A stretch of DNA of 64,000 nt from Flavobacteriales bacterium (GTDB lineage Bacteria > Bacteroidota > Bacteroidia > Flavobacteriales_D > Sanyastnellaceae): the NCBI GenBank assembly GCA_018402085.1, contig JAGYJM010000002.1, positions 124,001 through 188,000 on the forward strand, written 5' to 3'. Positions 50,144 through 64,000 of this stretch are shown one piece after another; position 1 is the stretch's first letter; each line of letters begins with the position of its first letter. The translations under genes were made by a program, and so were the position numbers. The notes under the pieces are model-generated. The model saw nothing but the letters and a program-made list of their open reading frames with translations. It was not told the DNA's origin and did not search any database.

Positions 50144-50215
50144 TTAGTCCTGAGAGCAAAGGTCATGTTTTTAATGCGAAGTTGACAGTGTTGCCCGCAA
50201 AAACGTGAAGTGGTT

Positions 50216-51409
50216 TCAAAGGTCGGCAAGTGCCGTCAACACAACCTGGGACCAGGTGTGATGTTGGATGACTTTTTGCTGCCAGTGTTGTCCGAGAGAC
50301 GTTCGAAGTGTCTGGTCTTCAGTGAGCTTTTTGAGCGCTGCAGCGAGGTCGTCTGTGCCGGGTTTCACTAACAGCCCATCTTTGCCATGCTCCATGACAT
50401 CTTTTACCGGCAGAACATCGGGGGCGATGACGGCTTTACCGAGAGCACCGTACTCAAAAATCTTGACCGGTGAGCCGTACCAGTTTGAGCGCGCCATAAC
50501 GGCGATATCCATGGCTGCGATATGATCCGGTATGAATTGTCCGGTAACAGCCCCCGTCCATACCACGCGATCGCTGATCTTGAGATCTCGGGCGAGATTT
50601 TTGAGGTCATTGAGTATTAGCCCGTTGCCTACGATCAAAGCGCGGAGTTGCGGAAATTCCGGAACGAGCTGTGCAATGGCTTTGAGTAGCAAGTCAACCC
50701 CATGATAAGGAAAAATGGAGCCAACAAAACCTACGACGATGTGGCTATCAGAGAAGCCTCTTGCTGCGCGCACATGTGCTCTGCGATTGGGGTTTCTAAT
50801 GAACTGCTCAGGCCGAATGGCATTGGGAGTGATCACTGTTTTGCCTGCCGCCCCCTGTACTTGTTTTGTAACATATTCTTTCAATGCGCTGGAGACGACC
50901 ACTATGCGGTCTGTATCGTTGAATTGCCGGCACTCGGCGTGAAGGGAGCGCTTGTGATAAGCACTTTTTCCTTCCATGGAAATACGCTCTTCGGGGTAAG
51001 GAGCATTCATTTCGAGGACGTGACGTATGTGGAGTTCATTCGCTACCCGCACGCCGGAAGTCATCATGTAGTAGCCTCGCTCATAGATCAGATCAGGTTT
51101 CCAATCAATGGCTGCCTGCCTTAGGTATTCATAGCCCTTATCGTCTTCACGAATGAGTTTGTAGTCTTTGGCGGTTTGCCAAAGCATCGCCGGGGTGAGT
51201 TTTTTGAACGTGTCTTTCACCTCACCGCCTTCTAGCCTTTCGTCAAGAGGGTTTGGAACGGGGCGCTTGTCGCCACCCATGATGAGTGTTTTTACCTCGT
51301 GGCCCAGTTCACGCATAGCCCGTATGACTTCGCGCATATGAACACCCGGACCGGCGTCGAGGTCAAGGGGCAGTTCGGGATGAGGAGAATAGTAAAGGAT
51401 GCGCATCAA
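50216..51409 (-). CDS. Family 4 glycosyltransferase
   Basis: This 397-residue GT-B enzyme begins MRILYYSPHPELPLDLDAGPGVHMREVIRAM. The second domain has IVVGFVGSIFPYHGVDLLLKAIAQL (about 223-247), VVWTGAVTGQFIPDHIAAMDIAVMARSNWYGSPVKIFEYGALGKAVIAPDV (about 295-345) and a C-terminal cap. Its N-terminal half also holds a long insertion with RRAHVRAARG. The gene stands 72 bases upstream of the next glycosyltransferase and 49 bases after the 51459 gene, the loosest spacing in the locus. Confidence 0.9.
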   Translation of the reverse strand: MMRILYYSPHPELPLDLDAGPGVHMREVIRAMRELGHEVKTLIMGGDKRPVPNPLDERLEGGEVKDTFKKLTPAMLWQTAKDYKLIREDDKGYEYLRQAAIDWKPDLIYERGYYMMTSGVRVANELHIRHVLEMNAPYPEERISMEGKSAYHKRSLHAECRQFNDTDRIVVVSSALKEYVTKQVQGAAGKTVITPNAIRPEQFIRNPNRRAHVRAARGFSDSHIVVGFVGSIFPYHGVDLLLKAIAQLVPEFPQLRALIVGNGLILNDLKNLARDLKISDRVVWTGAVTGQFIPDHIAAMDIAVMARSNWYGSPVKIFEYGALGKAVIAPDVLPVKDVMEHGKDGLLVKPGTDDLAAALKKLTEDQTLRTSLGQHWQQKVIQHHTWSQVVLTALADL

Positions 51410-51458
51410 GTTTCAGGCAAGGTAAAGCCAATGTCCGCCATGAACATTTTGACGCAAG

Positions 51459-52706
51459 TTAAATTGAAATTTTCAGAAGTGAGATAAGCTCAGCCGTTCG
51501 ATTATTAAGAGTGTGCGAATCTACTTTAACGGTATTGCCTGGAATTTGGCCTTGGTGTAGATCAAGAAGGAAGTCTTTTATTTCGGAACTATTAGAGGCA
51601 ATCACACCCAGCTTTTCGGATTGAATGAAAGATGCTACTTCGCCTTTTGGCCCGAGGTAAAGAATTGGTTTTTTGAAAGAAAGTATTTCGTAGAATTTTG
51701 TAGTACGTGAATCTGGCATGTGATCGGGTAACAGCAGCAGGATTGCATCAGCACGTGACAACTCGTCGTATATTCTTTTTCCAATGGGTGGATTTACCTT
51801 GACCGACGGGGAGGTATTGCGCAGGCATAAAGGAATTTGGTCAGGAGTATAAAATCGGAACTCAAAAAGGCTTCTCTGCTCAGGGGCAATGCTGTTCAGA
51901 GCCTGAGGTATATATTTTAAATACTTCTCAATACCCATGTACAGAGCACCACCATATACGAGGGTGGTTTTCTTTTCCTCATCGGCCAGTGACTGATTTT
52001 GTGCAGTTTTGAAATCATCCGGGTCGAAAAAGTGTTCTAGATTATAGAATTGGCATTCTTTGCCGTGTTGATTTTTGCTTTTCAGAAGTGCTGTGAACGA
52101 CGGCAGAGGAGAGGTGACCAGGTTTGCATTTTGAAGCACAAAATTCTCTTTGCGAATTTCCTCTTTCCTTCTGAGTGCTGAAATATTTTCCATGCCGTAG
52201 TTCTTTCCTTCAATCCAGGGGTCACGGTAATCGGTATGAAAGAAAATACTTTGGTGCAGCGATTTGAAAAGGGCACAATAGTAAAGCACATTAAACGGCG
52301 CCCCGGTAGCAATGAGATGGGTAATAGGACGCTTTTCGTTCAGGCTTTTCAGCCGCGTTGTGAGGTAGGGCTCCCATCCAATTGATCGGTCGTAAATAGT
52401 ACCTTTTTCTGTGAGCCTTAATCTGAGTTTGTGGAATCTGTATAAGACTTTCTCAACAAGGTTCTGGGGGCCGTGTGACAAAACACGGGGAAATTTTCTA
52501 GGCAAGGTATTGACATGAAGCCTTGAAGATATAGTGTCAGAAGTCCAGCCTGAATTGTCATATTCTCCCGCAGGCTCTGCCTTGATGACGTTCACCTCGT
52601 ATCCTGATTCGACTAGTCCTTTGGCAAATTTAGCCCACCTTCGCCCTCCGATACCTTCATTCGGAGGGAAATCGAAACAAACAATCACGATGTTCAGCTC
52701 AGGCAT
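51459..52706 (-). CDS. Glycosyltransferase-like (GT4-type) protein
   Basis: This 415-residue protein begins LNIVIVCFDFPPNEGIGGRRWAKFAKGL (4-31), a pattern seen in GT4 and related GT-B enzymes. It has a donor-domain segment KTTLVYGGALYMGIEKYLKYIPQALN (about 248-273) and LSRADAILLLLPDHMPDSRTTKFYEILSFKKPILYLG (about 325-361), the degenerate equivalent of the E-x7-E region. The base composition is visibly more AT-rich than in its neighbours (long runs such as TTTTTGAAAGAAAG), which could mean a more recent acquisition. It overlaps the DegT-type aminotransferase by 8 bases. Confidence 0.78.
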   Translation of the reverse strand: MPELNIVIVCFDFPPNEGIGGRRWAKFAKGLVESGYEVNVIKAEPAGEYDNSGWTSDTISSRLHVNTLPRKFPRVLSHGPQNLVEKVLYRFHKLRLRLTEKGTIYDRSIGWEPYLTTRLKSLNEKRPITHLIATGAPFNVLYYCALFKSLHQSIFFHTDYRDPWIEGKNYGMENISALRRKEEIRKENFVLQNANLVTSPLPSFTALLKSKNQHGKECQFYNLEHFFDPDDFKTAQNQSLADEEKKTTLVYGGALYMGIEKYLKYIPQALNSIAPEQRSLFEFRFYTPDQIPLCLRNTSPSVKVNPPIGKRIYDELSRADAILLLLPDHMPDSRTTKFYEILSFKKPILYLGPKGEVASFIQSEKLGVIASNSSEIKDFLLDLHQGQIPGNTVKVDSHTLNNRTAELISLLKISI

Positions 52707-53796
52707 GTTTACGGATACAGGAACATATATGTTCTAAGGCCTCTTCACTGAGTTCAGGATATATCGGTAGCGATAGGATTTCATTGCAAAGCCTTGTGGC
52801 TGCAGGAAACTCATCTGCTGAATGGCCGAGATCACTGAAACAGGGCATCAGAGGCATCGGCTGGGGGTAATGCACGGCTGTATTGACACCTTCATTTTTC
52901 AAAGCAGCACTAAGCTCATTTCGATTTTTATGTCGGATCACAAACAAGTGATAGGCGTGAGTACCCTCTGACACTGCAGCAGGCAGAACAATGCTTTCGA
53001 CGTCTGAAAGTGCACGAGTGTATTCAGCAGCGATCTTATTTCTGCGTTCTACCCAATGCTCAAGATGGGGTAGTTTGGCCATTAGCACAGCTGCCTGGAG
53101 CCCATCCAGACGCGAATTACGACCGACGTAGGTGTGAACATGTTTTTTAGGCTGACCATGATTCGATAGTTGCCGAATCCGATCAGCGGTATCTGCATGA
53201 TTTGTAACAACAGCCCCTGCATCACCGTACGCTCCGAGATTTTTTCCCGGATAAAAACTGAAGGTGCCAGCAAGGCCAAACCCACCGACATGCTGCCCTT
53301 CAATTTTAGCGCCATGCGCCTGAGCGCAGTCTTCAAGAACAAATAGGCCGGCATTTTCTGCGATTTTCATAATGGCCGGCATATTCGCAGGGCGACCGTA
53401 AAGATGCACAGGAATAATGCCTCTTGTCTGTGGTGTGATTTTCTCTTCGATGCGGGTTACATCAATGTTGAAGTGTTCATCGATATCGACGAAGACAGGT
53501 TTGGCTTTGCGCGACCTGACGGCTTCAGCAGTTGATACCCATGAAAGTGCGGGAACGATAATTTCGTCGCCGTCACCAATACCGATACTATCCAAAACGA
53601 GTTCAATGGCATCCGTACCATTGGCACAGCCAGCTGTGAATGCGACATCAATGTATTGAGAAAAAGCGGCTTCGAACATTGAGGGGAAGCGACCGCCGAT
53701 AAAGGCGGTTTCAGCTATGACATCGCTGATTGCTTTGTCGATGCTATTCTTGTACCTGTCATATTGCGTTTTAAGGTCAACAAATGGGATGTTCAT
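52699..53796 (-). CDS. DegT/DnrJ/EryC1/StrS sugar aminotransferase (WbpE-like)
   Basis: This 365-residue PLP enzyme has CANGTDAIELVLDSIGIGDGDEIIVPALSWVST (about 57-89), Asp156 in EDCAQAHGA, and the Schiff-base Lys185 in SFYPGKNLGAYGDAG. The C-terminal part (NSRLDGLQAAVLMAKL, HYPQPMP) is also typical. With the adjacent Gfo/Idh dehydrogenase (4-base overlap), which looks like WbpB/WlbA, it would transaminate a 3-keto-uronic acid sugar nucleotide to a 3-amino sugar. The N-acetyltransferase of that pathway is not obvious. I infer substrate from context only. Confidence 0.9.
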   Translation of the reverse strand: MNIPFVDLKTQYDRYKNSIDKAISDVIAETAFIGGRFPSMFEAAFSQYIDVAFTAGCANGTDAIELVLDSIGIGDGDEIIVPALSWVSTAEAVRSRKAKPVFVDIDEHFNIDVTRIEEKITPQTRGIIPVHLYGRPANMPAIMKIAENAGLFVLEDCAQAHGAKIEGQHVGGFGLAGTFSFYPGKNLGAYGDAGAVVTNHADTADRIRQLSNHGQPKKHVHTYVGRNSRLDGLQAAVLMAKLPHLEHWVERRNKIAAEYTRALSDVESIVLPAAVSEGTHAYHLFVIRHKNRNELSAALKNEGVNTAVHYPQPMPLMPCFSDLGHSADEFPAATRLCNEILSLPIYPELSEEALEHICSCIRKHA

Positions 53797-54839
53797 GATC
53801 CTTGGTGTTGCATTTTCTGTGCGTCACGAACAGAGTCATAGATCATTTCAATGGCGCGAATGGTTTTGAGGGCCTCGTCACCTTCAACCACGCCTTTTCG
53901 ACCGGTTGCAAATTGTTCAACAATGCCTTCGATGACGCGGTGGTGATTGGAGCTGGTACCTTGATATTTACCGTAGTCGTTTGGCTTGTCTTCAAAGGTA
54001 ATACCCTCCGGCAGCGGATAAGACTGAACATCCCAGGTGTCAATTTCGTTGAGGTATTTCCCGCCGATCTTGATGGTGCCGTTCTCTGCGATGACCGTGA
54101 TGCTGCCTTCATAATTTTTGTTGTAGACGCAAGTTGTCCAGAAGATCGAGCCAATTACACCACTTGAAAAACGAATGGCGGTAACACCACAATCCTCAAT
54201 TTCTATGTCGTGATTTTTTGTGTCTATTTGGGTGGTTGCACTGACCACATCGCCAAACCACCAGATCATCAAATCGATAAAGTGGCTTACCTGCGTATGA
54301 AGAGCCCCACCTTCCAGTGCCTTTACACCTCGCCATGCACTATCGTTGTAGTAGCCTTGATGTCTGTTCCACATCACATTGCATTGCACCATGAAAATTT
54401 GCCCGAGCCTCTTGCTGTCAATTGCCTCTTTGGTAAGTGCGATGGGTTTATTGTAACGATTTTGTTTGACCACGAAAACCTTGCGATCGGCCTCTTGAGC
54501 TTTGGCAATCATGCGCTCGCAATCCTCGGTTCGCAAGGCCATTGGTTTCTCTACGAGAACATGGTAGCCGTGCTCTAAAGCCTGAATTGTTTGTTCCGCA
54601 TGCAGTCCGTGCGGAGTGGCAATGCTCACCATATCAATGTCTATGGCATCGAGCATATGGCTGTAGTCGGTGTAACAGTTGAGCTTGTAAAGCGCTCCTA
54701 GTTTTTGACACACTTCTTCGTTGGTGTCGCAGATGGCCTCAATCTTAACATCGGGATTGGCGTCAAGAACAGCGATGTGTCGCTTACCTATATTGCCGCA
54801 GCCGACAACAGCCACTTTGATGATTTTTTTCTCCGACAT
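53793..54839 (-). CDS. Gfo/Idh/MocA-family sugar-nucleotide oxidoreductase (WbpB/WlbA-like)
   Basis: This 348-residue protein has a Rossmann motif VAVVGCGNIGKRHIAVL (10-26), the catalytic EKPMAL (about 97-102), and the C-terminal-domain segments KQNRYNKPIALTKEAI, WNRHQGYYNDSAWRGVKALEGGALHTQVSHFIDLMIWWFG. These strongly resemble UDP-N-acetyl-glucosaminuronate 3-dehydrogenases (WbpB/WlbA type), including the WRG and GGA(L)..QxSHxxDL motifs. The product would feed the DegT aminotransferase encoded next. An upstream UDP-GlcNAc 6-dehydrogenase is not in the window. Confidence 0.85.
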   Translation of the reverse strand: MSEKKIIKVAVVGCGNIGKRHIAVLDANPDVKIEAICDTNEEVCQKLGALYKLNCYTDYSHMLDAIDIDMVSIATPHGLHAEQTIQALEHGYHVLVEKPMALRTEDCERMIAKAQEADRKVFVVKQNRYNKPIALTKEAIDSKRLGQIFMVQCNVMWNRHQGYYNDSAWRGVKALEGGALHTQVSHFIDLMIWWFGDVVSATTQIDTKNHDIEIEDCGVTAIRFSSGVIGSIFWTTCVYNKNYEGSITVIAENGTIKIGGKYLNEIDTWDVQSYPLPEGITFEDKPNDYGKYQGTSSNHHRVIEGIVEQFATGRKGVVEGDEALKTIRAIEMIYDSVRDAQKMQHQGS

Positions 54840-54927
54840 AGCCTCAGAGTTTCGATTCAGTTGGTCCTAAATAAGTACTGCGCGAATATACCATTTTCAT
54901 CTACCGATATGGCTGTTTTCAAGGGGC

Positions 54928-55596
54928 TCAGAGGCTCAAAACCGAAAGGCTTTCATGTATGTCTGACACCAGGTGGTCTGGGTTTAGTGATTGCAGAAAG
55001 TTCGCCGTCCGAAGGCCTGAGGTTACGGCGATGCAAAGGGCTCCGAGCTGCTGTCCGGCCAGGATGTCAGCTTCTGTATCCCCTATGAAAACGGCGTCGG
55101 TTGAATCAAAGCCGGGAAATTCATCCCGGATGAGTTTTACTTTTATAGCTGACTTTTGTGTCTGGCTCGCCGGGTCTGCAGCGAGAATTGTTCTGAAAAA
55201 GCCATCTATACCCAGGCCTACCAGCTCTTTTTTAAGGTTTTCTGAATGATGCCTCAGCGTGACCAGTACCAGTTTATAACGAGTACTGAGTTTCTCAAGG
55301 GTCTCAAATGCTCCCGGAATAAGCTGGTCGAATTGCTGATAAGCCGGAGTTTCGATATGTGATTTACGGATGCTTGCGAATGAAGAAAGCTCTGCTCCAG
55401 ACTTTAGATGGATTTCCCGCTCAGGCATACCGCTTACTTTGAAGCGCCAGTATTCAGCTTTGGCAAGGGGCTTGTGTCCTTCGTTTGACAGGATATCTAC
55501 GTATGATCTGTAAAACTTCTCGGATACATCAAGGATGGTTCCGTCAAGGTCTACAAAGCAAAAAGATTCTTTTTTCACTTCAACGTTTAATGACAA
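54928..55596 (-). CDS. HAD-family hydrolase (phosphatase)
   Basis: This 222-residue protein has the HAD motif I FVDLDGTILD (about 14-23), motif II VLVTLRHH (about 109-116), the Lys of motif III and motif IV AVFIGDTEADILAGQQLG (about 167-185). The helical cap lies between motifs I and II. In the context of the NeuB/NeuA genes it could dephosphorylate a sugar acid 9-phosphate, but phosphoglycolate-type or sugar-phosphate activity is equally possible. Its 5' end overlaps the methyltransferase gene by 17 bases; the gap to the oxidoreductase is 88 bases. Confidence 0.85.
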   Translation of the reverse strand: MSLNVEVKKESFCFVDLDGTILDVSEKFYRSYVDILSNEGHKPLAKAEYWRFKVSGMPEREIHLKSGAELSSFASIRKSHIETPAYQQFDQLIPGAFETLEKLSTRYKLVLVTLRHHSENLKKELVGLGIDGFFRTILAADPASQTQKSAIKVKLIRDEFPGFDSTDAVFIGDTEADILAGQQLGALCIAVTSGLRTANFLQSLNPDHLVSDIHESLSVLSL

Positions 55597-56353
55597 GGGC
55601 GTGACCGTTCAGGTTGTGGATAACCATGGCGTCTTCAAGGGTGTCTTGAAGCTCATAAACGAGTTTCGTGATACCCGCCATTTTGGAGAATCCAAAATCA
55701 TCAAACACCAGCATCCCTCCATGGGTTAAGCGTGGCCAGGCAAACTCAGCAACATCTTTTGCAGACGCGTAGGTGTCTACATCAATATGGCATAGCTTGA
55801 TTGGAGCATCAGGCAGTAAGCCAGCGCTATCGTCGGGAAAGATGCCTTCCAGAATGTGGCAATTATTGATGTTCAACTTGTCGAAGAAACTCTCTACAAG
55901 GGCCCTGCTGGTGTCGCTATGCTCGCCTCCTCCGTAAAAATTATCACTGGCTGAGGCTTTCACAACACCAGTGAAAGTGTCACAGGTATATACTTCACCT
56001 CCTTCGGCCAACGCGAGCAATGCCGCTGTACCACCTTTCCAGGTTCCTACCTCAAGAATGATCCCTTCAACATGCCTGAGCTGCTTTGAAAGCATGTAGA
56101 GTTCGTAGCAACGATAAATATCTACGAGTGTATGATTCGATACTGAACTGTACGCCTGTTTGAAACCAGGGTCTTGAAACCAGGGCGACAGCGTTGACTT
56201 TGGCAGGATGACGCCTTGTTCAAAGTCGAGCTCGTCTGAACGGTCTTGCCATGGAATTGATATCTCAAGTTGTTGACCGTTATACGCAATATTCGAACCG
56301 CGAAGGGCGGAATTCCGTAGCAGAGTTAATTTATTGTCGTTCATCAGTTTCAA
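55580..56353 (-). CDS. TylF/MycF-type O-methyltransferase
   Basis: This 257-residue class I SAM-dependent methyltransferase of the macrocin-O-methyltransferase type has a long N-terminal lid, SAM motif EGIILEVGTWKGGTAALLAL (about 98-117), and the metal-binding acidic residues in KLCHIDVDTYASAKDVAEF (about 181-199) and LVFDDFGF (about 213-220). Family members methylate sugar hydroxyls using a divalent metal. Here it probably methylates a sugar of the surface polymer. Starts at 56353 and 56344 are both possible; the first overlaps the ATP-grasp gene by 23 bases. Confidence 0.88.
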   Translation of the reverse strand: MKLMNDNKLTLLRNSALRGSNIAYNGQQLEISIPWQDRSDELDFEQGVILPKSTLSPWFQDPGFKQAYSSVSNHTLVDIYRCYELYMLSKQLRHVEGIILEVGTWKGGTAALLALAEGGEVYTCDTFTGVVKASASDNFYGGGEHSDTSRALVESFFDKLNINNCHILEGIFPDDSAGLLPDAPIKLCHIDVDTYASAKDVAEFAWPRLTHGGMLVFDDFGFSKMAGITKLVYELQDTLEDAMVIHNLNGHALVIKR

Positions 56354-57311
56354 TAATTATTTCTTCCCAATAGCGGGTCATAAGTAAATTCTTTTTTAAA
56401 TCGAGTAATGGCTTTACTTGTCTTCCATCCATAAGATCAATAAGCATCGCCGGTATATTCATTCCGGCAGCAACGGTTAGCATGAGTCCTCCTGCGGCGA
56501 AACGCGGATTGACTTCGAGAAAGCGCAACTCTTCGCCAGTTTGAAAGAATTGCACATTGCAGACGCCTACCACTTTGAATGCTTCACAAATGCGGTGAAT
56601 GAGCGGAATGAAGGGCGTATTGTCAATGGTTCGTCCTTTGACACTCTGGCCAGCTTTGGTGGCTAGCCGAATGCGAGGAGCGACGACCAGAGGTTGGTGC
56701 GAACGATCGCAAAGCACATCAACGGTAATTTCTGAACCAGTAAGCAGCTCCTGAATGAGGTAGGGCTTCTGCTCTCCGTGTAAATGCGCAAGTTGTTCAT
56801 GGTCTGAGATCATCCTTGCTCCTGTGCTTGAACTTCCTTCCACCGGTTTAGCAAAAAGCGGGAAAAAGGTGTGCGGAAGTGTTGCTCCTTCAGCAAGGGT
56901 ATAGGTTTTTGGCGGAGCGAAATGCCCCTCTTCGGCAATCCGATACATCTCGGTTTTATCGTTGCAAAGCTTGATGGCATCAGGCTGTGGTAAAAAGGTC
57001 TTAAGCCCTGCAGCACTAAGAATCGATTGATTCGCAGCAATGACGGGGATTTCTTTAGAGAAAATCGGAAAGAGGTAGGTGGCGCCTGTTTTCTTTGCGA
57101 TTTCGCACAGTTGATGGATGTAGTCTTCACTCGTGAAAGGAGCAACAAGGAAGAACTGATCAGCCAGGTACAACCCTGCTGCTGTGCTGTCAATATCGAC
57201 AGCTACAATGTGAAATTCCTCATTCGTGAACTTCTTCAGTGCCTTGATCACACTTATGGCAGATGCAGTGCCTGCACTCGTAATGAGAACCGTTCTCTTA
57301 TTTTTCATCAT
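56331..57311 (-). CDS. ATP-grasp enzyme (carbamoyl-phosphate-synthase-like ligase)
   Basis: This 326-residue protein has an N-terminal pre-ATP-grasp domain (VLITSAGTASAISVIKAL, VDIDSTAAGLYLADQFF). The ATP-grasp fold follows with FPLFAKPVEGSSSTGARMI (about 129-147), QELLTGSEITVDVL (about 176-189) and the metal site FLEVNPRFAAGG (about 271-282). It should form a C-N or C-O bond from a carboxylate, for example an amino acid-like addition to a sugar acid. No such system is fully known from this context, so the acceptor remains open. It overlaps the unknown gene upstream by 14 bases. Confidence 0.88.
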   Translation of the reverse strand: MMKNKRTVLITSAGTASAISVIKALKKFTNEEFHIVAVDIDSTAAGLYLADQFFLVAPFTSEDYIHQLCEIAKKTGATYLFPIFSKEIPVIAANQSILSAAGLKTFLPQPDAIKLCNDKTEMYRIAEEGHFAPPKTYTLAEGATLPHTFFPLFAKPVEGSSSTGARMISDHEQLAHLHGEQKPYLIQELLTGSEITVDVLCDRSHQPLVVAPRIRLATKAGQSVKGRTIDNTPFIPLIHRICEAFKVVGVCNVQFFQTGEELRFLEVNPRFAAGGLMLTVAAGMNIPAMLIDLMDGRQVKPLLDLKKNLLMTRYWEEIIIETDERQ

Positions 57312-58677
57312 GGTGGTGGCTCGCTAAAGGTGTGTCGTTTTGTGTTTGTCTCAAGACGCGGTCAAGAATGTGTTGTTGAGCAAGGTGATGATAAGCATGA
57401 AGTTCCATTTCCTGAAAAAATGCGGTGTTTGAAAGCCCTGATATCTTCTCAATTTGTGTTGAAAGTGCTAAAGATTGGTTGAAACATAGTTGATTTAACT
57501 GGCTGCCTGTAAATGGGAATTCAGGTGTTAAGGCATTTCCAATGAGGACTTTAAATCCGCAAAATAGCCGTTCGTAAATGATGGTGCTGTAAGCTGCAAG
57601 GCCAATATCTGCTTCATGAAATGATCTGACTGATGACACGCCCTCTCGAAAAAAATCCCATTGAATATTCTGACCGAGTTGTTCGCGGTAAAACGCAAGA
57701 GTTCTTGGCCAAACATCAGGCGAACGCTCCCTGGGATGAGGAAAAATCAGCAGGCGCATATCCGTATCGCCAGACAGGTAATCACGTAGCTCGCGAAGAA
57801 TGTATACCTCGGTTTCAGGGATGTAAAGACCGTCATCTGTATGCCCGCTATCTTTGCGCAGCCAACCGGCATGAGAATAAAAGCCCAATACGCCTGCCTT
57901 CGGATCGGGAGAGCTTGGATAATAATCAAAGATATAGTTAAGTGAGGCTTCCGGGATCCACGACTCTCGCTCAGAAACTGAAACCCGTAGTTCATTTTGC
58001 TCTAGTTCTTCTTCCTGATATCCTGAAGTTGTAATGAGTCGATCTGCCTGCAGTACTGAATGATGCGCTCGCAAAGGCCCCGGTGAAGGCACTTTCGTGA
58101 CGAATACGCCGAGTTCTCTCAATTGCAGGTATTGCCAGTTCGAATCAATCAGGTAAGGAGCGTGATCAATCAGAGAGTCGATGTGTTCTTTTTTACAGAA
58201 CTCCAGTAAGGCTGCGATCTCTGTAACGATGTGGATATCCAATGCACGATTGCCTCTGTTTTTTCCAGATATGAGGCATGTGAGCGAGCGAGCGAGACCG
58301 AAGCGCAAAAGAGGTAGCCATGTTTTACGGAACGAGAGAATAGCAGGGAGCTCTTCTTTCGTGAGGTACCAACCCGGCTGAGGATCCAACATCTTGCGGT
58401 AGTATGCGATGACTGGTTCATAATTTCGGGTTTCGGAATTGAAGATCGCACAACGCCTGTCGCCATCTTCGAGACGATGTATACCTTGGGGTTCGGATCG
58501 GTAGATTCGTTTAAGCGTGCGCCATAAAATACGAAAGCCTACAAGCGGGTCGGCGGCTTCAGGACTCGTGAGTCTGTAAGTGGTGTTGTGCAATAAGCAG
58601 TGAGCAGCCTGTTTCTCGAGGTTGTTTGAGGACATTCGGTCAATGTGCCGTCGGTATTTGATGACTGATTCGATCAC
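57298..58677 (-). CDS. Large unknown protein of the polysaccharide locus, possible GT-B transferase
   Basis: This 459-residue protein matches no family I can name with confidence. It has no signal peptide or membrane segment. Its C-terminal half looks like a nucleotide-sugar-binding GT-B domain: GVLGFYSHAGWLRKD (about 263-277), the HP motif in LLIFPHPRERSPD (about 310-322), and SFHEADIGLAAYSTIIYERLFCGFKVLIG (about 348-376), which resemble bacterial sialyl- and polysialyltransferases and CDP-glycerol transferases. It has a DDG at about 281, but too close to HP for the usual sialyltransferase spacing. Together with NeuA and NeuB genes it is a candidate nonulosonic acid transferase. Confidence 0.55.
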   Translation of the reverse strand: MIESVIKYRRHIDRMSSNNLEKQAAHCLLHNTTYRLTSPEAADPLVGFRILWRTLKRIYRSEPQGIHRLEDGDRRCAIFNSETRNYEPVIAYYRKMLDPQPGWYLTKEELPAILSFRKTWLPLLRFGLARSLTCLISGKNRGNRALDIHIVTEIAALLEFCKKEHIDSLIDHAPYLIDSNWQYLQLRELGVFVTKVPSPGPLRAHHSVLQADRLITTSGYQEEELEQNELRVSVSERESWIPEASLNYIFDYYPSSPDPKAGVLGFYSHAGWLRKDSGHTDDGLYIPETEVYILRELRDYLSGDTDMRLLIFPHPRERSPDVWPRTLAFYREQLGQNIQWDFFREGVSSVRSFHEADIGLAAYSTIIYERLFCGFKVLIGNALTPEFPFTGSQLNQLCFNQSLALSTQIEKISGLSNTAFFQEMELHAYHHLAQQHILDRVLRQTQNDTPLASHHHDEK

Positions 58678-59384
58678 CTCGCATCAAGACTCGTGACCCT
58701 CCGCAACGTCTCAAATTCGGTTGCCGTATTCTTAATGATGGTCAGGTCGTCCATGTCCATAGAGCACAGGTGGGCAAGCTCACCGGTGCGCTGAAACGAC
58801 TTCCTTAGCGTGAAGTGCTTTTCGAGGTAGGTCGCTCCATGGGCAGAAGCAAAAAGCGCGGCCGAGTTCCCCAGTGTGTGGTCTGAAATACCGGAGAAAC
58901 GGGTAGATGCAAAGTCCGGCATCTCAAACTCCTCTACCAACGTCGGGTATTTCACCACGCAATAGAGGTATATGGCATGGCCTTCCACCGCGATGTTGTC
59001 AACTTCTTCTTGCGCCATGTCTGACGGTATCGAAACAAATGTGGGCTTTCCGATCGACATGACTTCATGTGTCAGCTCCGGAAATGCCTTGTGCATGCGT
59101 GCTGCCACTTTCAGGTATTTGAGGTCGAGCTTGACGCACCAGTCAAGGTATTTCTCATCAAAGGCAGTCGCAAAGACCGGTATGCCATGGTGATCGCCAT
59201 AGTCGCGGAGGTGCTCAAGCTCTTCGTATGACATGGCGTGGTTCTTTGGCTTGTTGAACTTCTCAGGATCGTACAACTGAACCTTCACGGCTTCTGCGCC
59301 GCCGAGCTTTGATTGAAGAATCATTTGCTCCGCTGCGGCAATGTCGCCGCTGAACTGAGGAGATATTTCTGAAATGATGAACAT
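58674..59384 (-). CDS. neuB: NeuB-family (sialic acid synthase-like) enzyme lacking the SAF domain
   Basis: This protein matches the TIM-barrel part of N-acetylneuraminate synthases: FIISEISPQFSGD, GGAEAVKVQLYDPEKF, PVFATAFDEKYLDW, SGISDHTLGNSAALFAS (SDHT at 167-170) and ATYLEKHFTL (EKH at 188-190). These hold the metal and PEP-binding residues. At 236 residues it is about 100 shorter than usual: the C-terminal antifreeze-like (SAF) domain is missing, and the stretch after EKHFTL is not the usual D-x-xx-S/L-P motif. It overlaps the upstream-reading unknown gene by 4 bases and lies 9 bases after the asnB-like gene. It may still condense a sugar with PEP, or have changed function. Confidence 0.75.
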   Translation of the reverse strand: MFIISEISPQFSGDIAAAEQMILQSKLGGAEAVKVQLYDPEKFNKPKNHAMSYEELEHLRDYGDHHGIPVFATAFDEKYLDWCVKLDLKYLKVAARMHKAFPELTHEVMSIGKPTFVSIPSDMAQEEVDNIAVEGHAIYLYCVVKYPTLVEEFEMPDFASTRFSGISDHTLGNSAALFASAHGATYLEKHFTLRKSFQRTGELAHLCSMDMDDLTIIKNTATEFETLRRVTSLDAR

Positions 59385-59393
59385 GGTTGAAAG

Positions 59394-61223
59394 TTACGTT
59401 TGTTGTTCGAGGAAGATGCGTGCATTGATGAAGTTGAACAGGAACTTTTTATAGCTGTTTGCGAATTCACCACGCTGAAGCACCGCTTCTAGTTTCGGTT
59501 TGTTGAAGTAGTCAAAAATGGGCGATTCATCGAGGAAGTAAGCCAGATGAGACGCATTGTTAAAGTCAAAAATCGAATTGATAGAGGCATTGAAGCCCTT
59601 TTTCTCGCGCGAAAGACGCACCTGGTCGTTCAGGATGCCCTTCATCGATTCGCGGAGAATATACTTATTGTAGCCCTCATGAATCAGGTGCTCTGAAGGA
59701 ATGCTGTATGCCCATTCAAATAAACCGCGATCGAGAAAGGGGCTTCGGTTCTCGATGCTGTACATCATACTGTTCAGGTCATCTTCGTGCAGGATCACTC
59801 TCACCACTTCGTGAAACAGCTCATTCATCATGCGATTACGGAGCAGCGAAGCTCCGTAGTCCGTTTCCGTAAAGGGTTCATGGAAATCTTCGTGCAAGAG
59901 GCTCCTGAATTGCTGATTATTCAGGTAAATGTGATCCCGCTTGTAAGGCTCTTTGATGTAAAGATCAAATTTCCTGAAATCGGGGTGCCGCACGTACTGC
60001 AGCGGATAGGTCTCCCACTCTTTTTTGTATCGCTGAAACTCCGGATGGTTCCTCATCTCATAAAGGTGCAGCACGAAGTGGTCGTAATAACCCGTGAAGA
60101 GTTCATCAGCAGCCGTGCCGGATACTGATATCTTATACCCGTTGTCTGCAATCTGCTGCGAGAGCATCGAGTGCACGAAATAAGAAATGGTTGCCACCGG
60201 TGCATCGTGATATTTCACGAGGCGTTCGAGGTAATCAATATGGTGTTCACTTGGCTCCAGCACGATCCGGGTGCTTTGGCAGCCGGTATCTTTAATGGTT
60301 GCCTGAATGTTGTCGTACTCGTCGTAGCGATGGTCTTTGTCGATGATTGAGAAGGTATGGGCAGTAGTGTTCAGTACCTTGGAGGCAATAGACACGAGAC
60401 TCGCAGAATCTACTCCGCCACTCAGGCAAAATGCGAGAGGAACATCTGACCGCATCCTCATCTTCACGCTTTCAATTAACCGTTCGCGCGTACCTTCAAT
60501 GGCTTCCTCCATGGTCATCTTGCGCTCATTCAAGCGGGGTGCCCAGTAGGTTTGCGCCGGCGGGGCAATCTCACCTTCCTGATGAATCCACATATTGGAG
60601 CGAATCGGCAGTTCCCAGACTCCTTTGAAAAAGGTTTCTTGGGTTTTATAAACCGACTTGTGCCCATTGATCATGTAGCGCAGTAAATGCTGTTCGTTTA
60701 CAGCGAATGAACGGTCAGCGATACTGCGCAATGCTTTTATTTCTGAAGCGAAGTAGAGGTTTTCACCGTCTTCAAAAAGGTACAACGGTTTTTCACCAAA
60801 GCGATCACGAGACAGCAGCAGTGAAGCAGTGCGCTCATCGTACAGCGCGAAGGCCCACATTCCTTCGAAGCGGTCGCAGCACGCTTCTCCCCAGTGGAGG
60901 TAGGCTTTTACGAGTACTTCAGTATCTGAATCGGTTGAAAAACGATGGCCTGCCCGTTCGAGCTCTGTTTTCAGCTCCACATAATTGTAAATTTCACCGT
61001 TGTAGACAAGGTGCACCGGTCCTTCATGAAAGGGCTGATTAGAGCGATCATCGAGGTCAATGATGCTGAGGCGCCGGTGCAAAAGCACCGGGATGCGGTG
61101 TTGATCCTCCCCAACCCAGTTTCCCTCGGCGTCAGGCCCGCGTTTTGCGAGCGTGTGAAGGGTGCGCTGAATGACTTCAGCTGATGGAACTTTTAATCCG
61201 AAAGATCCGGCAATACCACACAT
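59394..61223 (-). CDS. asnB: Asparagine synthetase-like glutamine amidotransferase (second copy)
   Basis: This 609-residue protein starts MCGIAGSFG with Cys2 as nucleophile. The glutaminase domain has KRGPDAEG, HRRLSIIDL and YNGEIYNY; the synthetase domain has FCLSGGVDSASL (about 270-281) and SGTAADELFTGYYDH. It differs clearly from the first copy in the locus (42503-44380) and has longer spacers, including an insertion before HRRLSII that matches dispersed palindrome copy 15. Placed between neuA and neuB, it may amidate a nonulosonic or uronic acid, as related enzymes do in other sugar-acid pathways. This is inference. Confidence 0.88.
   Translation of the reverse strand: MCGIAGSFGLKVPSAEVIQRTLHTLAKRGPDAEGNWVGEDQHRIPVLLHRRLSIIDLDDRSNQPFHEGPVHLVYNGEIYNYVELKTELERAGHRFSTDSDTEVLVKAYLHWGEACCDRFEGMWAFALYDERTASLLLSRDRFGEKPLYLFEDGENLYFASEIKALRSIADRSFAVNEQHLLRYMINGHKSVYKTQETFFKGVWELPIRSNMWIHQEGEIAPPAQTYWAPRLNERKMTMEEAIEGTRERLIESVKMRMRSDVPLAFCLSGGVDSASLVSIASKVLNTTAHTFSIIDKDHRYDEYDNIQATIKDTGCQSTRIVLEPSEHHIDYLERLVKYHDAPVATISYFVHSMLSQQIADNGYKISVSGTAADELFTGYYDHFVLHLYEMRNHPEFQRYKKEWETYPLQYVRHPDFRKFDLYIKEPYKRDHIYLNNQQFRSLLHEDFHEPFTETDYGASLLRNRMMNELFHEVVRVILHEDDLNSMMYSIENRSPFLDRGLFEWAYSIPSEHLIHEGYNKYILRESMKGILNDQVRLSREKKGFNASINSIFDFNNASHLAYFLDESPIFDYFNKPKLEAVLQRGEFANSYKKFLFNFINARIFLEQQT
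61075..61095 (+). repeat. Dispersed GGATG palindrome, copy 15
   Basis: Stem CGGTGC/GCACCG, loop AAAA, then GGATG. It is antisense to the second asnB-like gene and encodes the extra RIPVLLHR before the conserved HRRLSII motif. Confidence 0.75.
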
Positions 61224-61226
61224 TGG

Positions 61227-61817
61227 TCAAGTCTTATCCGGAGCGTGTTTGGCCCTGAAAACAGGTGACTGCTCTAAGGCACGAATGTCGTCAATCGTAT
61301 GGACATCTGCGTTGTTTGCGATCACAAATCCACAGTGGGCGCTTAGAAATGGATTGAAGATGGCATGTTTTTTTACAATCCGAAAGGCGGCATTCTGCAC
61401 CCCTGAACTGTCACAGCTCATCACTTCCCACAAGCGGTGCGCCTGCATCAGCTCATATCCGCTGCGAAGCTGTTCTGCGGTTAACTCCGGAGAGTTGGCC
61501 TGGGCAATAATGACTGTGTCTACTTGTCCGTTGGCTTCTACAAGCGGATCTTGCACCGCTTGACGGATAGCGATGATTTTTGGTGTGGAGTCGTCGGCCA
61601 GATCGGCTGGTCGCTTCAGAGGAGTCGCTCCCGCATCCTGCGCTTTGCGCAGTATTTCATCATCATCGCTACTCACAAAAACTTCGTCTACAAAAGCACA
61701 TCCGCCGAGGGCTTCGAGGGTATAATAAAGCAGCGGCTTACCAAAGAGAGGGTATATGTTTTTGCCTTTCAGGCGCTTTGAGCCACCTCTGGCCGGTATG
61801 ATCGCTATGGTTCTCAT
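61227..61817 (-). CDS. neuA: Acylneuraminate cytidylyltransferase (CMP-nonulosonate synthetase)
   Basis: This 196-residue protein has the family P-loop-like start IAIIPARGGSKRLKGKNIYPLFGKPLLYYTLEAL (4-37), then VSSDDDEILRKAQDAGATPLKRPADLADD (about 48-76), AQANSPELTAEQL (about 104-116) and the end HTIDDIRALEQS. It activates a nine-carbon sugar acid with CTP. It is shorter than classical NeuA (about 225-230). With the short NeuB it points to a nonulosonic acid in the surface polymer. It overlaps the MurG-like gene by 4 bases. Dispersed palindrome copy 16 (61634-61652) encodes LRKAQDA. Confidence 0.9.
   Translation of the reverse strand: MRTIAIIPARGGSKRLKGKNIYPLFGKPLLYYTLEALGGCAFVDEVFVSSDDDEILRKAQDAGATPLKRPADLADDSTPKIIAIRQAVQDPLVEANGQVDTVIIAQANSPELTAEQLRSGYELMQAHRLWEVMSCDSSGVQNAAFRIVKKHAIFNPFLSAHCGFVIANNADVHTIDDIRALEQSPVFRAKHAPDKT
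61634..61652 (-). repeat. Dispersed GGATG palindrome, copy 16 (3-base loop)
   Basis: On the minus strand: stem CTGCGC/GCGCAG, loop AAA, with GATG completing GGATG. It encodes LRKAQDA in neuA. Confidence 0.65.
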
Positions 61818-62902
61818 GAAATTCGGTTGAGAATGTCTTGCGCAATGATCTCGGCTCCGTTCACGCCCATCTCATGGTCACGCATGTTTTCTACAATGGT
61901 TTTGTACTCATTGCGAATGAACTGCGGAAGCAGCCTCGCCAGGTCTTCGCGAAAGGCTTCGATACTGATGAATGTGCCCAGTCCGCATTTTTTTAAATTG
62001 AGGATATTCTCACTCATTTCAGGGTTCATAGCCTCGCCAATCAGTAACATGGGGGTGCGCAGTCCAATGCATTCGCTGATGGTGTTAAAGCCTGCACGAC
62101 CGATCACCAGATCCATGTCACCGATGTAGTCTACCATAAGCTCGTTGGCATCAATGAAGCTTATGTTTTCCTGGTCACGTTGCATTTTCGACGAAACGTA
62201 GAACTGAAAATCGTTGAGATCGCGCACCGAATCCAGCGCCTTTTCAATGCTCGGTTGCAAAAGACCTGAACCACTGTCCATGATCATCACCCGGAAGCGA
62301 CCATTGCGCTGCACCTGTTTGTGATTGATCTCTTTTCTCAGAATCAGCGGCACCTGCCGAGCATTGTCGCGATAATAATGAAGGATTTCTTCGGGCGTGA
62401 ATGGCGGAAAGTAAAGCACGTCGGCCATTTTTGCCATTTCAAAAAAGCGATAGATGACCTTCGTGCTCAGCGGTGGAGGGTAGAGCTTGGAGAAGAACCA
62501 GTCCCAGGTAAAATGAGCGACGCCAAAAGCTGGTATGTTGCGCTCCACGGCTGCTGGAAAAGCCTCATATACAAAATCAGAAAGTACAAAATCATAGCCG
62601 GGCGTTGCAGCCTCTTCTTTAAGCCAATCTGCAGAGCGCTCAAGATAGCCGGCATAGCTCATTCGAATGGCAGCGAGATCAGGAGATCCGCTGGGAAGTT
62701 TGTGCCAGGTGATGTTGTTGTAACGATTGACCGCATTCACATCCTCAATAAGCCTTGAGGCGGCTTCCAGATGATGCTGGGTTTGCACGGTAAATGCTAT
62801 TGGTGCACCAAGGTCGCGCAGCGCTTCAATGATGGCGCGTTGGCGGACGATATGCCCGTATCCTTCGTCTGACAGGAATACCTTAGAATGCAGCGTGTTC
62901 AT
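61814..62902 (-). CDS. MurG/GT28-like glycosyltransferase or nucleotide-sugar hydrolase
   Basis: This 362-residue GT-B protein begins KVFLSDEGYGHIVRQRAIIEAL (7-28). Its C-terminal part has RVMIMDSGSGLLQPSIEKAL (about 204-223) and DLVIGRAGFNTISECIGLRTPMLLIGEAMNPEMSENI (about 264-300), the MurG/GT28-type donor site. In sialic-acid-like loci, proteins of this fold (PseG type) can instead hydrolyse UDP-sugars before the NeuB step. It is the first gene of the locus by transcription order, 46 bases from the T9SS gene upstream, and overlaps neuA by 4 bases. Confidence 0.75.
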   Translation of the reverse strand: MNTLHSKVFLSDEGYGHIVRQRAIIEALRDLGAPIAFTVQTQHHLEAASRLIEDVNAVNRYNNITWHKLPSGSPDLAAIRMSYAGYLERSADWLKEEAATPGYDFVLSDFVYEAFPAAVERNIPAFGVAHFTWDWFFSKLYPPPLSTKVIYRFFEMAKMADVLYFPPFTPEEILHYYRDNARQVPLILRKEINHKQVQRNGRFRVMIMDSGSGLLQPSIEKALDSVRDLNDFQFYVSSKMQRDQENISFIDANELMVDYIGDMDLVIGRAGFNTISECIGLRTPMLLIGEAMNPEMSENILNLKKCGLGTFISIEAFREDLARLLPQFIRNEYKTIVENMRDHEMGVNGAEIIAQDILNRIS

Positions 62903-62948
62903 GCAGTAGCGGGTCCATGTGCCACGCAGACGTCAGTCTGAACAGGTC

Positions 62949-64000
62949 TTATTGAATCACAATGTGTTGCTGTTCTTGCTGCTGCCCGTCGTGGAGGCGG
63001 ATCAGGTAAGCTCCCGCATTCAGGTTTGGCAAAGCCACCTGAAGGAAGCCGGCATCTTCCGCGCCCGCAAAGGTATGGGAATAGACTAGTTGTCCGAGAA
63101 GATCATACACTTCGATGAAAATCAGTCCGAAGTACTTACCATCAGGCAGTTGCACAGTGAGCTGGTCTTGAGTCACCGGATTGGGGTAAAAAGAGGCTGC
63201 ATCTGTACCCTCATCCACTATGTTCAGGCTAAGTTCCATGGGGTTGCCGGGAACGGGAGCTAGTGGGTTGGTGTCAATAATGGTCACCGGACAAAAGAAG
63301 CCATAGTCGCCTTCTTGAGGATCAGCGCAAGCATCGAACATACCTACTTGAGGTTTGGCAGCCACGCGATAGGTTTCGCCCATTTCGAGACCGATGCCGT
63401 TCAAGCCAATGATGGTGTTCGGAGTGTACGCAACAATCGCCGGTCCCGTCGGAGTCATGGTAGGATCCATGGGGTCGATAGGCGCAAATTGCCAGGCGTA
63501 TTGATCGGCTACCGGCACAAACTGGCATTGCACAAAGCCACCGAGAAACTGAGAGCTATTGCAGAAGGCAGCCTGGACATTCGTGTAAGGTAGCGGGTTG
63601 GTAATGATGAAAATCGGCTCACTCCATGGGCCCCATACACCACAAAAGTTCACGCGCACCTCAATGCTGTAGATCTTGTTATAACGAATGCAAGTAATGT
63701 CACTGAGGTAAAGGAAGCTTGAGGATCCGCCGCTGTGCACGAAGGAGGTGTTGCCGTTATCGGTCGTTAACCGCCACTCCAGAAGTTGATTGGTACCTAC
63801 GAAAATCGCTTTGATTTCTCCGTCGAGGTCATAAGACTGGCCGATGTACGGTGGTTCTACTTGCGTATTCGGAAAGTCTTCCATTTGTATCGGACGGGTT
63901 TCGCCCCACCCGCTCCAGTAGCCGTTATTGGCCTCCTGGATTTGAACACGCACATTGTATGTGGTTCCAAAGCAGAGCCCCCCAACGGCATTTAAATTCA
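62949..64000 (-). CDS. Secreted protein with type A T9SS sorting domain (cut by window end)
   Basis: The frame stays open to the window edge (upstream codons read VGGLCFGTTYNVRVQIQ), so the N-terminus and signal peptide lie outside. The visible 350 or so residues contain fibronectin-like beta segments with paired cysteines (ITCIRY, VNFCGVWGPWSEP, AFCNSSQF, QCQFVPVADQYAWQF). The C-terminal T9SS type A domain follows (ASFYPNPVTQDQLTVQL ... IEVYDLLGQLVYS ... LPNLNAGAYLIRLHDG). The protein is exported through T9SS to the surface. Ligand or activity unknown. It ends 46 bases before the polysaccharide locus. Confidence 0.85.
   Translation of the reverse strand, partial: NLNAVGGLCFGTTYNVRVQIQEANNGYWSGWGETRPIQMEDFPNTQVEPPYIGQSYDLDGEIKAIFVGTNQLLEWRLTTDNGNTSFVHSGGSSSFLYLSDITCIRYNKIYSIEVRVNFCGVWGPWSEPIFIITNPLPYTNVQAAFCNSSQFLGGFVQCQFVPVADQYAWQFAPIDPMDPTMTPTGPAIVAYTPNTIIGLNGIGLEMGETYRVAAKPQVGMFDACADPQEGDYGFFCPVTIIDTNPLAPVPGNPMELSLNIVDEGTDAASFYPNPVTQDQLTVQLPDGKYFGLIFIEVYDLLGQLVYSHTFAGAEDAGFLQVALPNLNAGAYLIRLHDGQQQEQQHIVIQ

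Follow-up and report, generated by a model that had tools for sequence, protein, structure and literature searches.

A probable CMP-nonulosonate transferase beside an ATP-grasp, methyltransferase and phosphatase cassette in a Flavobacteriales glycan locus

What sugar does the unclassified protein HP459 transfer, and do the three genes behind it act on that same sugar? HP459 is a 459-residue protein encoded in a 64,000-nucleotide stretch of a Flavobacteriales genome (assembly GCA_018402085.1, contig JAGYJM010000002.1, positions 124,001 to 188,000; hereafter, the window), where its gene directly follows a short NeuB gene and precedes genes for an ATP-grasp ligase, a TylF-type O-methyltransferase and a HAD-superfamily phosphatase. 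All four open reading frames (ORFs) lie on the minus strand where a first-pass annotation had placed them, and that annotation had proposed that they form one module for the transfer and decoration of a nonulosonic acid. Our analysis partly supports this proposal: the transferase idea gains support, HP459 being probably a cytidine monophosphate (CMP)-nonulosonate transferase, whereas the single-module idea loses support, the other three genes looking tied to the Wbp diamino-uronate branch.

HP459 resembles HP-motif GT-B enzymes

HP459 (57298–58677, minus strand, as are the genes and motifs between 52699 and 62902 given below) has no family in Pfam or NCBIfam at E up to 0.1, and a search of its profile against PDB sequences gave chance matches only. 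An AlphaFold2 (AF2) model of HP459, computed with 36 of its relatives, reached a mean predicted local distance difference test score of 93.5, and its matches among known structures in Foldseek and VIA-align are GT-B glycosyltransferases and epimerases. The best VIA-align Z score is 14.4, for GT-B chains, and the rows include the GT38 polysialyltransferase structure 5wcn, solved with cytidine diphosphate (CDP), at Z 12.7 (root-mean-square deviation 4.0, 268 residues aligned). These rows are tied, 5wcn with the other GT-B chains, and because they are nearly equal the predicted fold alone names no donor. The sialyltransferase likeness that the first-pass annotation had proposed to look for emerged for GT38 in VIA-align and did not emerge in the 50 Foldseek rows shown; structures of GT52 and GT80 were absent among the VIA-align rows shown, which excludes nothing.

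In our alignment of 37 HP459 sequences (A5), residues H314, P315, E317, S364, E369, R370, S268, W272, R274, E290 and N180 are identical throughout, and the HP dipeptide singled out in the first-pass annotation, H314-P315, is also invariant in all 25 sequences of a second alignment (A1). The resulting HP-x-E motif (57727–57738) is the expected donor-phosphate site. Fifty residues after the histidine stands S364-T365 (57583–57588), in which residue 365 is threonine or serine in 35/37 sequences, and 136 residues before it lies D178-S-N180 (58138–58146), a candidate catalytic base loop with D178 present in 35/37; the AF2 model places D178 in a strand–helix loop (strand 168–171, helix 179–188). The M. 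haemolytica polysialyltransferase (MhPST) has a similar layout, with H291, S339-T340 at the phosphate 48 residues further on, and the base E153 in a loop after a strand, preceding H291 (PMC5517516). The spacings are close, 50 versus 48 residues from His to Ser-Thr and 136 versus 138 from the acidic residue to His.

Two other motifs set HP459 apart. The D/E-D/E-G motif of the N-domain is a feature of GT38, GT52 and GT80 (PMC2169525). In HP459 the strict form is not conserved, residue 179 being glycine in 1/37 sequences and residue 177 not acidic, and for this reason we do not file HP459 under a known sialyltransferase family. A 'DDG' at residues 281–283 was considered as this motif and rejected, as residue 282 is aspartate in 8/37 sequences and the site falls in the C-terminal domain. 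Likewise, the QxxxD motif ascribed to beta-Kdo (3-deoxy-D-manno-oct-2-ulosonate) transferases (PMC10148158) is not conserved, a Q-x3-D within 60 residues upstream of HP occurring in 7/37 sequences.

With hhalign and the best-scoring family members only, HP459 matches the PF07388 set (six members) at E 9.4e-5 and the PF05159 set (five members) at E 1.4e-4, while the six best members of PF04464, the CDP-glycerol transferase family, give E 0.16 and a probability of 0.4%, as for controls. In the comparison with larger family sets, the controls (two GT4 sets, GT28, the glycosyltransferase GT_51459 of the same locus, Gfo/Idh and DegT) all stay under 1%. Because the PF07388 and PF05159 matches held and that of PF04464 fell, we group HP459, by sequence profile, with HP-motif GT-B enzymes and apart from the best CDP-glycerol transferase members. 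The sets are small and hand-chosen, which weakens the separation of HP459 from CDP-glycerol transferases; the five PF05159 entries represent four different proteins (a single 723-amino-acid (aa) ORF gives both L101 and L102), four of the six PF04464 members lack the HP dipeptide, and L096, L120–L123 and L135, as short, weak or second matches, were left out of the larger family sets. Pfam itself returns weak, scattered matches for 25 HP459 relatives, the best relevant one being Capsule_synth (2/25, E 0.021). PF07388 is not among the nine families found for these relatives at E up to 1 and has no match in HP459 or elsewhere in the window genome, which also has no PF04464 match.

A second HP protein of 459 aa is encoded about 0.7 kb past the window end (L003:2749-4128), where it adjoins Wzx. 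It carries E209-G210, HPxE with HP at 340, and YSTT with STT at 382, all invariant in 8/8 sequences, and it likewise lacks a Pfam match above cut-off. In hhalign it matches HP459 at E 9.4e-7 (91%), its E209 paired with HP459 D178.

NeuB-family genes often accompany HP459

Relatives of HP459 were found in 24/60 genomes sampled, the window genome included; all belong to its own family (24/37 family genomes), with 0/23 in other families of the order. NeuB occurs in 38/60: in 24/24 genomes with HP459, in 2/13 family genomes without HP459, one of them by a weak match (E 3.9e-7), and in 12/23 genomes outside the family. The sampled genomes are interrelated and some are incomplete, so this co-occurrence is an association and not a set of independent events. 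The short form of NeuB is present in 11/37 family genomes.

A single-sequence search with HP459 of a genome contig collection found no relative, and a search with a seven-sequence alignment returned 37 named loci, many of them in Flavobacteriales metagenome genomes and some labelled Cryomorphaceae or Crocinitomicaceae; some names (for example, Chryseobacterium gleum) resemble placeholder labels. A NeuB-family gene, short or long, lies at most 3 kb from HP459 in 31/47 non-duplicate loci (window excluded), and in several long-NeuB loci SpsF-like and KdsC-like genes stand beside HP459. In the HP459 tree the window protein has a long branch (1.42) and clusters, with support of 98/89, with the six loci that share its gene order. 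Fourteen loci with duplicate records were counted once in this tree and 15 (those and L024) in the adjacency count; the locus recorded as L024 and L084, whose HP459 has an in-frame stop, was excluded from alignments A1 and A5.

NeuB-family matches fall in frames of about 550–590 aa, possibly fusions, at G020:C26, G039:C1, G057:C1 and L064:1690, and the 455-aa ORF at L026:1566-2933 is an apparent fusion, its two halves looking by eye like the neighbouring PseG-like and GNAT-like genes found in L025. A ThiF/MoeB-like gene, with a rhodanese-like end in some loci, lies between fabF/rnc and HP459 in L069, L070, L072–L074, L076 and L078–L080, which shows that the glycan locus sits at a fixed place in the chromosome.

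The predicted fold, motif geometry, profiles, NeuB neighbourhood and co-occurrence together uphold the suggestion that HP459 transfers the NeuB-derived sugar, and we regard it as probably a CMP-nonulosonate transferase or a transferase of a related CMP-ulosonate. Several observations weigh against this assignment. The D178 position is histidine or alanine in two sequences, and the PF07388 members are themselves only modestly above their family cut-off, at 30–42 bits. Foldseek's top rows are generic GT-B enzymes (OGT-like, NeuC, MurG), and the 50 rows shown contain no polysialyltransferase, with the CDP-ribitol enzyme TarL at rank 34. No NeuB gene lies within 3 kb in 16/47 loci, although two of these, L071 and L075, start near a contig end and are uninformative in this respect. 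With larger sets, weak members included, PF04464 (18 members, E 1.6e-5) scores like PF05159 (8 members, 5.8e-5) and PF07388 (12 members, 1.3e-4).

Three observations favour a different donor for HP459, namely CMP-Kdo, CDP-alditol or a uridine diphosphate (UDP)-sugar: PF05159, the KpsC/KpsS family, matches as well as PF07388, TarL appears in the Foldseek rows, and in ten of the 16 loci without a near NeuB gene HP459 adjoins WbpB, WbpD and WbpE. We consider this explanation unlikely, given the genome-level co-occurrence of HP459 with NeuB and the poor conservation of the beta-Kdo QxxxD motif. As for CDP-glycerol transferases, with which, according to the first-pass annotation, a grouping of HP459 would refute its reading, a grouping that seemed real with 18 members was gone with the six best, and we rejected it.

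The ATP-grasp, TylF and HAD genes occupy an apparently swapped slot

The genes behind HP459 were correctly read as an ATP-grasp enzyme, a sugar O-methyltransferase and a HAD phosphatase, and all three match Pfam families above cut-off. In the order of transcription the series runs NeuB, HP459, ATP-grasp, TylF and HAD, with overlaps of 4, 14, 23 and 17 bases, so the group does directly follow NeuB; a gap of 88 bases then precedes the Gfo/Idh gene. The ATP-grasp ligase (56331–57311), PRK12767-like with a PylC-like N-domain, matches PF15632 (ATPgrasp_Ter) at 73.8 bits (cut-off 29.1), PF02655 (ATP-grasp_3) at 58.2 (23.2) and PylC-like_N at 55.7 (27); its 228 bits to NCBIfam NF009405 (PRK12767) fall below the cut-off of 390, and its nearest PDB match is 2pn1 (E 1.2e-28). 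The TylF-type gene (55580–56353) is recognised by Pfam (PF05711, 52.6 bits, cut-off 23) and not by NCBIfam, with mycinamicin III 3''-O-methyltransferase as its PDB match (E 4.2e-8), and the HAD gene (54928–55596) matches PF13419 (HAD_2) at 67.4 bits (cut-off 23.8) and is recognised by NCBIfam as well.

The order of PseG-like, NeuA, AsnB, short NeuB and HP459, then Gfo/Idh, DegT and three glycosyltransferases, is repeated in the loci of six relatives, and because of this shared order the arrangement is not due to chance. Between HP459 and Gfo/Idh, these sister loci (L031, L052, L053, L054, L056 and L058) hold HisH, HisF and a WbpG-like gene where the window holds ATP-grasp, TylF and HAD; in L029, on the same contig as L058, the slot genes score above the cut-offs of HisH, of the acetamidino family AglZ/HisF2 and of WbuX. 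The six loci also carry a WbpD-like acetyltransferase between Gfo/Idh and DegT, and wherever WbpB and WbpE occur together WbpD is there too (16/16 loci; labelled as such in 15 and read from the frame in L076). In the window the Gfo/Idh gene (53793–54839) and the DegT gene (52699–53796) overlap by 4 bases, hence there is no room for WbpD between them, and the genome as a whole lacks a WbpD ortholog, the best match being 36% over 120 aa (52 bits).

Both flanking enzymes are identifiable as WbpB-like and WbpE-like from solved relatives and from their orthologs in the sister loci. The Gfo/Idh dehydrogenase is closest to PDB entries 3q2k and 3q2i, which we take to be WlbA, at about 230 bits, with the next best at 83. 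The DegT aminotransferase matches WbpE at 270 bits, and in a quick tree it joins the six sisters with 99% support in the Shimodaira–Hasegawa-like approximate likelihood ratio test on a branch of 1.17; the Gfo/Idh branch measures 1.61 and has no firm placement.

These two proteins are unusually diverged. Comparing the identity of each window protein to the six sister loci with the identity within four sister pairs, we obtained 57–59% versus 77–83% for Gfo/Idh and 55–57% versus 65–73% for DegT. The corresponding values are 76–82% versus 79–86% for short NeuB, 62–71% versus 65–78% for AsnB, 65–73% versus 65–80% for NeuA, 62–70% versus 64–79% for the PseG-like protein and 45–51% versus 45–52% for the glycosyltransferase GT4_50216. 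On this measure the greatest change is in the Wbp enzymes, with little in the genes for nonulosonate synthesis. The exchanged slot content, the lack of WbpD and the divergence of WbpB and WbpE point to the Wbp diamino-uronate branch, to which the ATP-grasp/TylF/HAD cassette looks tied, and not to the nonulosonic acid decoration proposed earlier.

This assignment also faces contrary evidence. Scyllo-inositol transaminase (350 bits) and QdtB (316 bits), both aminotransferases, are better matches for the window DegT than WbpE is. By the same identity measure, divergence is not restricted to the Wbp enzymes: HP459 (36–41% versus 43–53%) and GT_51459 (40–42% versus 47–55%) are affected as well, and there is slight extra divergence in GT4_48965 (50–53% versus 56–62%), the acyltransferase (48–54% versus 54–60%) and a secreted, type IX secretion system (T9SS)-like protein (47–48% versus 52–61%). 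HisH and HisF accompany short NeuB in 9/9 loci and occur in 0/10 WbpBDE loci without NeuB; as they track short NeuB, the replaced amidine module could act on the nonulosonate. Finally, the cassette is seen in one genome only.

The ATP-grasp and HAD genes recur as a pair

Close relatives of the ATP-grasp gene (E up to 1e-30) occur in 1/114 family genomes, the window's own. Across 395 genomes of the phylum there is one other match at E up to 1e-45, and NF009405 at 1e-50 matches 21/395, own included. We examined the neighbourhoods of this enzyme in 21 Bacteroidota loci besides the window, L051 included and three of them (L140, L145 and L152) short contigs, with HAD called by eye from an N-terminal DxD. 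A HAD gene directly adjoins ATP-grasp in 17/21 loci, the exceptions being L150, L152, L154 and L155. Fourteen of these 17 HADs are about 215–232 aa long with motifs like D-L-D-D-T-L-Y (one is cut by a contig end), and the remainder comprise a 104-aa form, a KdsC-like protein and the 187-aa protein of L051. DegT lies at most three genes from ATP-grasp in 10/21 loci and four genes off in L051 and L143, and NeuB is present in 1/21 (L157). Since HAD adjoins in 17/21 loci and NeuB is found in 1/21, ATP-grasp and HAD form a recurring pair that is independent of NeuB. The supposed tie of ATP-grasp to NeuB fails on these counts, and equally on the contrast between 1/114 family genomes for ATP-grasp and 11/37 for short NeuB. 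Among the papers listed in literature searches on ATP-grasp enzymes in glycan loci and on HisH/HisF with nonulosonates, none dealt with this pair in its title or in the opening of its abstract.

The closest ATP-grasp relative found (36% identity, L051) stands with HAD, a WbpE-like DegT, AsnB and a weakly similar Gfo/Idh, and within 20 kb there is no NeuB or WbpD label. The window TylF has three matches at 1e-25 in the 395 genomes, itself included. The other two lie in loci without the window-type ATP-grasp label. One of these loci (L093:4500-12005, genome G453, from another family of the phylum) combines a TylF relative of 36% identity with NeuB-like, NeuA-like, SDR (short-chain dehydrogenase/reductase) and DegT genes and, by eye, an ATP-grasp-like ORF, another possible link between TylF and nonulosonates.

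Proposed mechanism and alternatives

We infer the substrates, the reactions and the direction of the swap from the gene content, predicted fold, motifs, neighbourhoods and divergence pattern described above. HP459, as an inverting GT-B enzyme, would transfer a CMP-activated nonulosonate, produced by its neighbours short NeuB and short NeuA, onto the surface glycan as it grows; the phosphate of CMP would be bound by H314 and S364/T365, with D178 as the base. The ATP-grasp/TylF/HAD genes would be a separate cassette, standing where six sister loci have the acetamidino genes HisH, HisF and WbpG; this genome has lost WbpD as well. The substrate of the ATP-grasp enzyme would be UDP-2-acetamido-3-amino-2,3-dideoxy-uronate, the product of WbpB and WbpE, on which it would make an amide, in the simplest case by acylating the 3-amino group that WbpD otherwise acetylates and, less simply, at the carboxylate. 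TylF may then O-methylate the acyl group or the sugar, and HAD may take off a phosphate that the acyl group had carried. The amide chemistry suggested in the first-pass annotation hence stays plausible, on a different sugar and perhaps at an amino group in place of the carboxylate. We offer the whole scheme, a nonulosonate transferase plus a separate Wbp-branch cassette, as a tentative one whose chances fall just short of even.

ATP-grasp and HAD might instead act as Cj1438C and Cj1435 of C. jejuni do, joining a phosphorylated amine to the carboxylate of a polymer uronate with subsequent dephosphorylation by HAD, TylF methylating the product. In the C. jejuni capsule an amide ligase that uses ATP has been shown to act ahead of a HAD phosphatase (PMC11800397), and the frequent adjacency of HAD and ATP-grasp is as this mode of action would have it. 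We nevertheless judge it improbable: no gene for serinol-phosphate or ethanolamine-phosphate synthesis was recognised among 20 proteins scanned, the lost WbpD goes unexplained, and the likeness to the C. jejuni ligase is one of predicted function. That HP459, ATP-grasp, TylF and HAD act as one module on the nonulosonic acid, ATP-grasp coupling an amino acid or amine to the carboxylate of that sugar, is more doubtful still. In its favour, the genes overlap straight after NeuB, the replaced HisH/HisF go with short NeuB in 9/9 loci, and in L157 the ATP-grasp has NeuB and NeuA-like neighbours. Against it, NeuB is missing from the other 20 ATP-grasp loci, the unusual divergence falls on WbpB and WbpE and not on NeuB, NeuA or AsnB, and the loss of WbpD is left unexplained.

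If HP459 is a nonulosonate transferase and the cassette belongs to the Wbp branch, an unclassified transferase group would be added to the HP-motif GT-B enzymes, and environmental Bacteroidota would gain a candidate nonulosonate transferase. The window would also be a natural experiment, one genome in which an amide-ligase cassette has seemingly replaced sugar acetylation and amidine formation, and this swap makes the function of the recurring ATP-grasp and HAD pair testable. A bolder version is a long shot: HP459 would found a new CMP-nonulosonate transferase family serving short and long NeuB pathways in Bacteroidota, the cassette would make an O-methylated amino-acyl or glyceroyl amide on the Wbp diamino-uronate in place of acetylation, and the sugar, made without VimA, may tether type IX secreted proteins.

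The surrounding locus

The short NeuB (58674–59384, 236 aa; PF03102, 91 bits) consists of the barrel only, its C-terminal SAF domain being absent by Pfam and by alignment with full-length NeuB. Residues E6, K34, K92, Y146, H169, E188 and H190, which we take to be catalytic, are common to this SAF-less form and full-length NeuB in ten aligned sequences. On its 5' side lie an AsnB-type amidotransferase (59394–61223; Pfam and NCBIfam above cut-off), a short NeuA/PseF-like cytidylyltransferase (61227–61817; PF02348 74.8 bits; TIGR03584 95 bits, below cut-off) and a PseG/GT28-like protein of the MJ1255 type (61814–62902; PF04101 33.5 bits, above cut-off; TIGR00661 50.5 bits, below cut-off). Glycosyltransferase genes follow 3' of DegT, together with genes for an acyltransferase, an epimerase, a second AsnB-type protein (42503–44404) and a protein with weak likeness to O-antigen ligase or Wzy. 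Having two AsnB-type genes in one glycan locus, the window combines a type that is also found in relatives without NeuB nearby (42503–44404) with one found only in short-NeuB loci (59394–61223).

At the window's end, positions 62949–63998, continuing to L003:2653, encode a secreted 567-aa protein whose tail, by eye, resembles a type IX sorting signal; sister genomes conserve it next to the locus. Some 5 kb past the window end there is a further NeuB, of full length, within another nonulosonate-like gene set (L003:5607-11526) that also holds an M28-type protein, an SDR, a class III aminotransferase of the PRK06209 type, an SpsF-like cytidylyltransferase and a GNAT; the aminotransferase is above cut-off, and M28, SDR and GNAT were named by eye. 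GC content gives no sign of a recent foreign insert, at 0.43–0.51 over 50000–63000 and 0.46–0.48 across the cassette, and scans for promoters and terminators scored no higher than the mean of shuffled sequence.

Comparison with known systems

Among characterized enzymes, the GT38 polysialyltransferases (MhPST, 5wc6/5wcn) share with HP459 the GT-B fold, the HP motif, a Ser-Thr about 50 residues later and an acidic residue in an N-domain loop 136–138 residues before the histidine. HP459 differs from them in having no PF07388 match, in showing D-S/A-N for D/E-D/E-G and in a structural match that starts at residue 73. In the KpsC/KpsS beta-Kdo transferases (PF05159, GT99/GT107 type), HP and a later Ser-Thr segment align with HP459 when profiles are compared; HP459 differs in that the QxxxD nucleophile motif is not conserved and in lacking a Pfam match.

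For the cassette, the C. jejuni capsule pair Cj1438C and Cj1435 offers an ATP-dependent amide former and a HAD phosphatase in a surface-glycan locus, as is predicted for the window. The Wbp/Vim pathway, which makes the linking sugar of type IX secretion in P. gingivalis and T. forsythia, shares WbpB, WbpE and AsnB-type amidotransferases with the window, and the linking sugar of P. gingivalis, a Wbp sugar, carries an N-seryl group (PMC7468200). An amino-acid amide is one possible product of our cassette too, and this is likewise a Bacteroidota locus beside a type IX-like secreted protein. A Pfam scan confined to 30 proteins of the window showed neither VimA nor VimE, and a link of the locus to type IX secretion is speculation. 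A further parallel is the Wbp/Wlb pathway to 2,3-diamino-uronates (WbpA-B-E-D with WbpG/HisH/HisF): the sister loci hold WbpD and the acetamidino module, whereas the window retains WbpB-like and WbpE-like genes, lacks WbpD and carries ATP-grasp, TylF and HAD in the slot.

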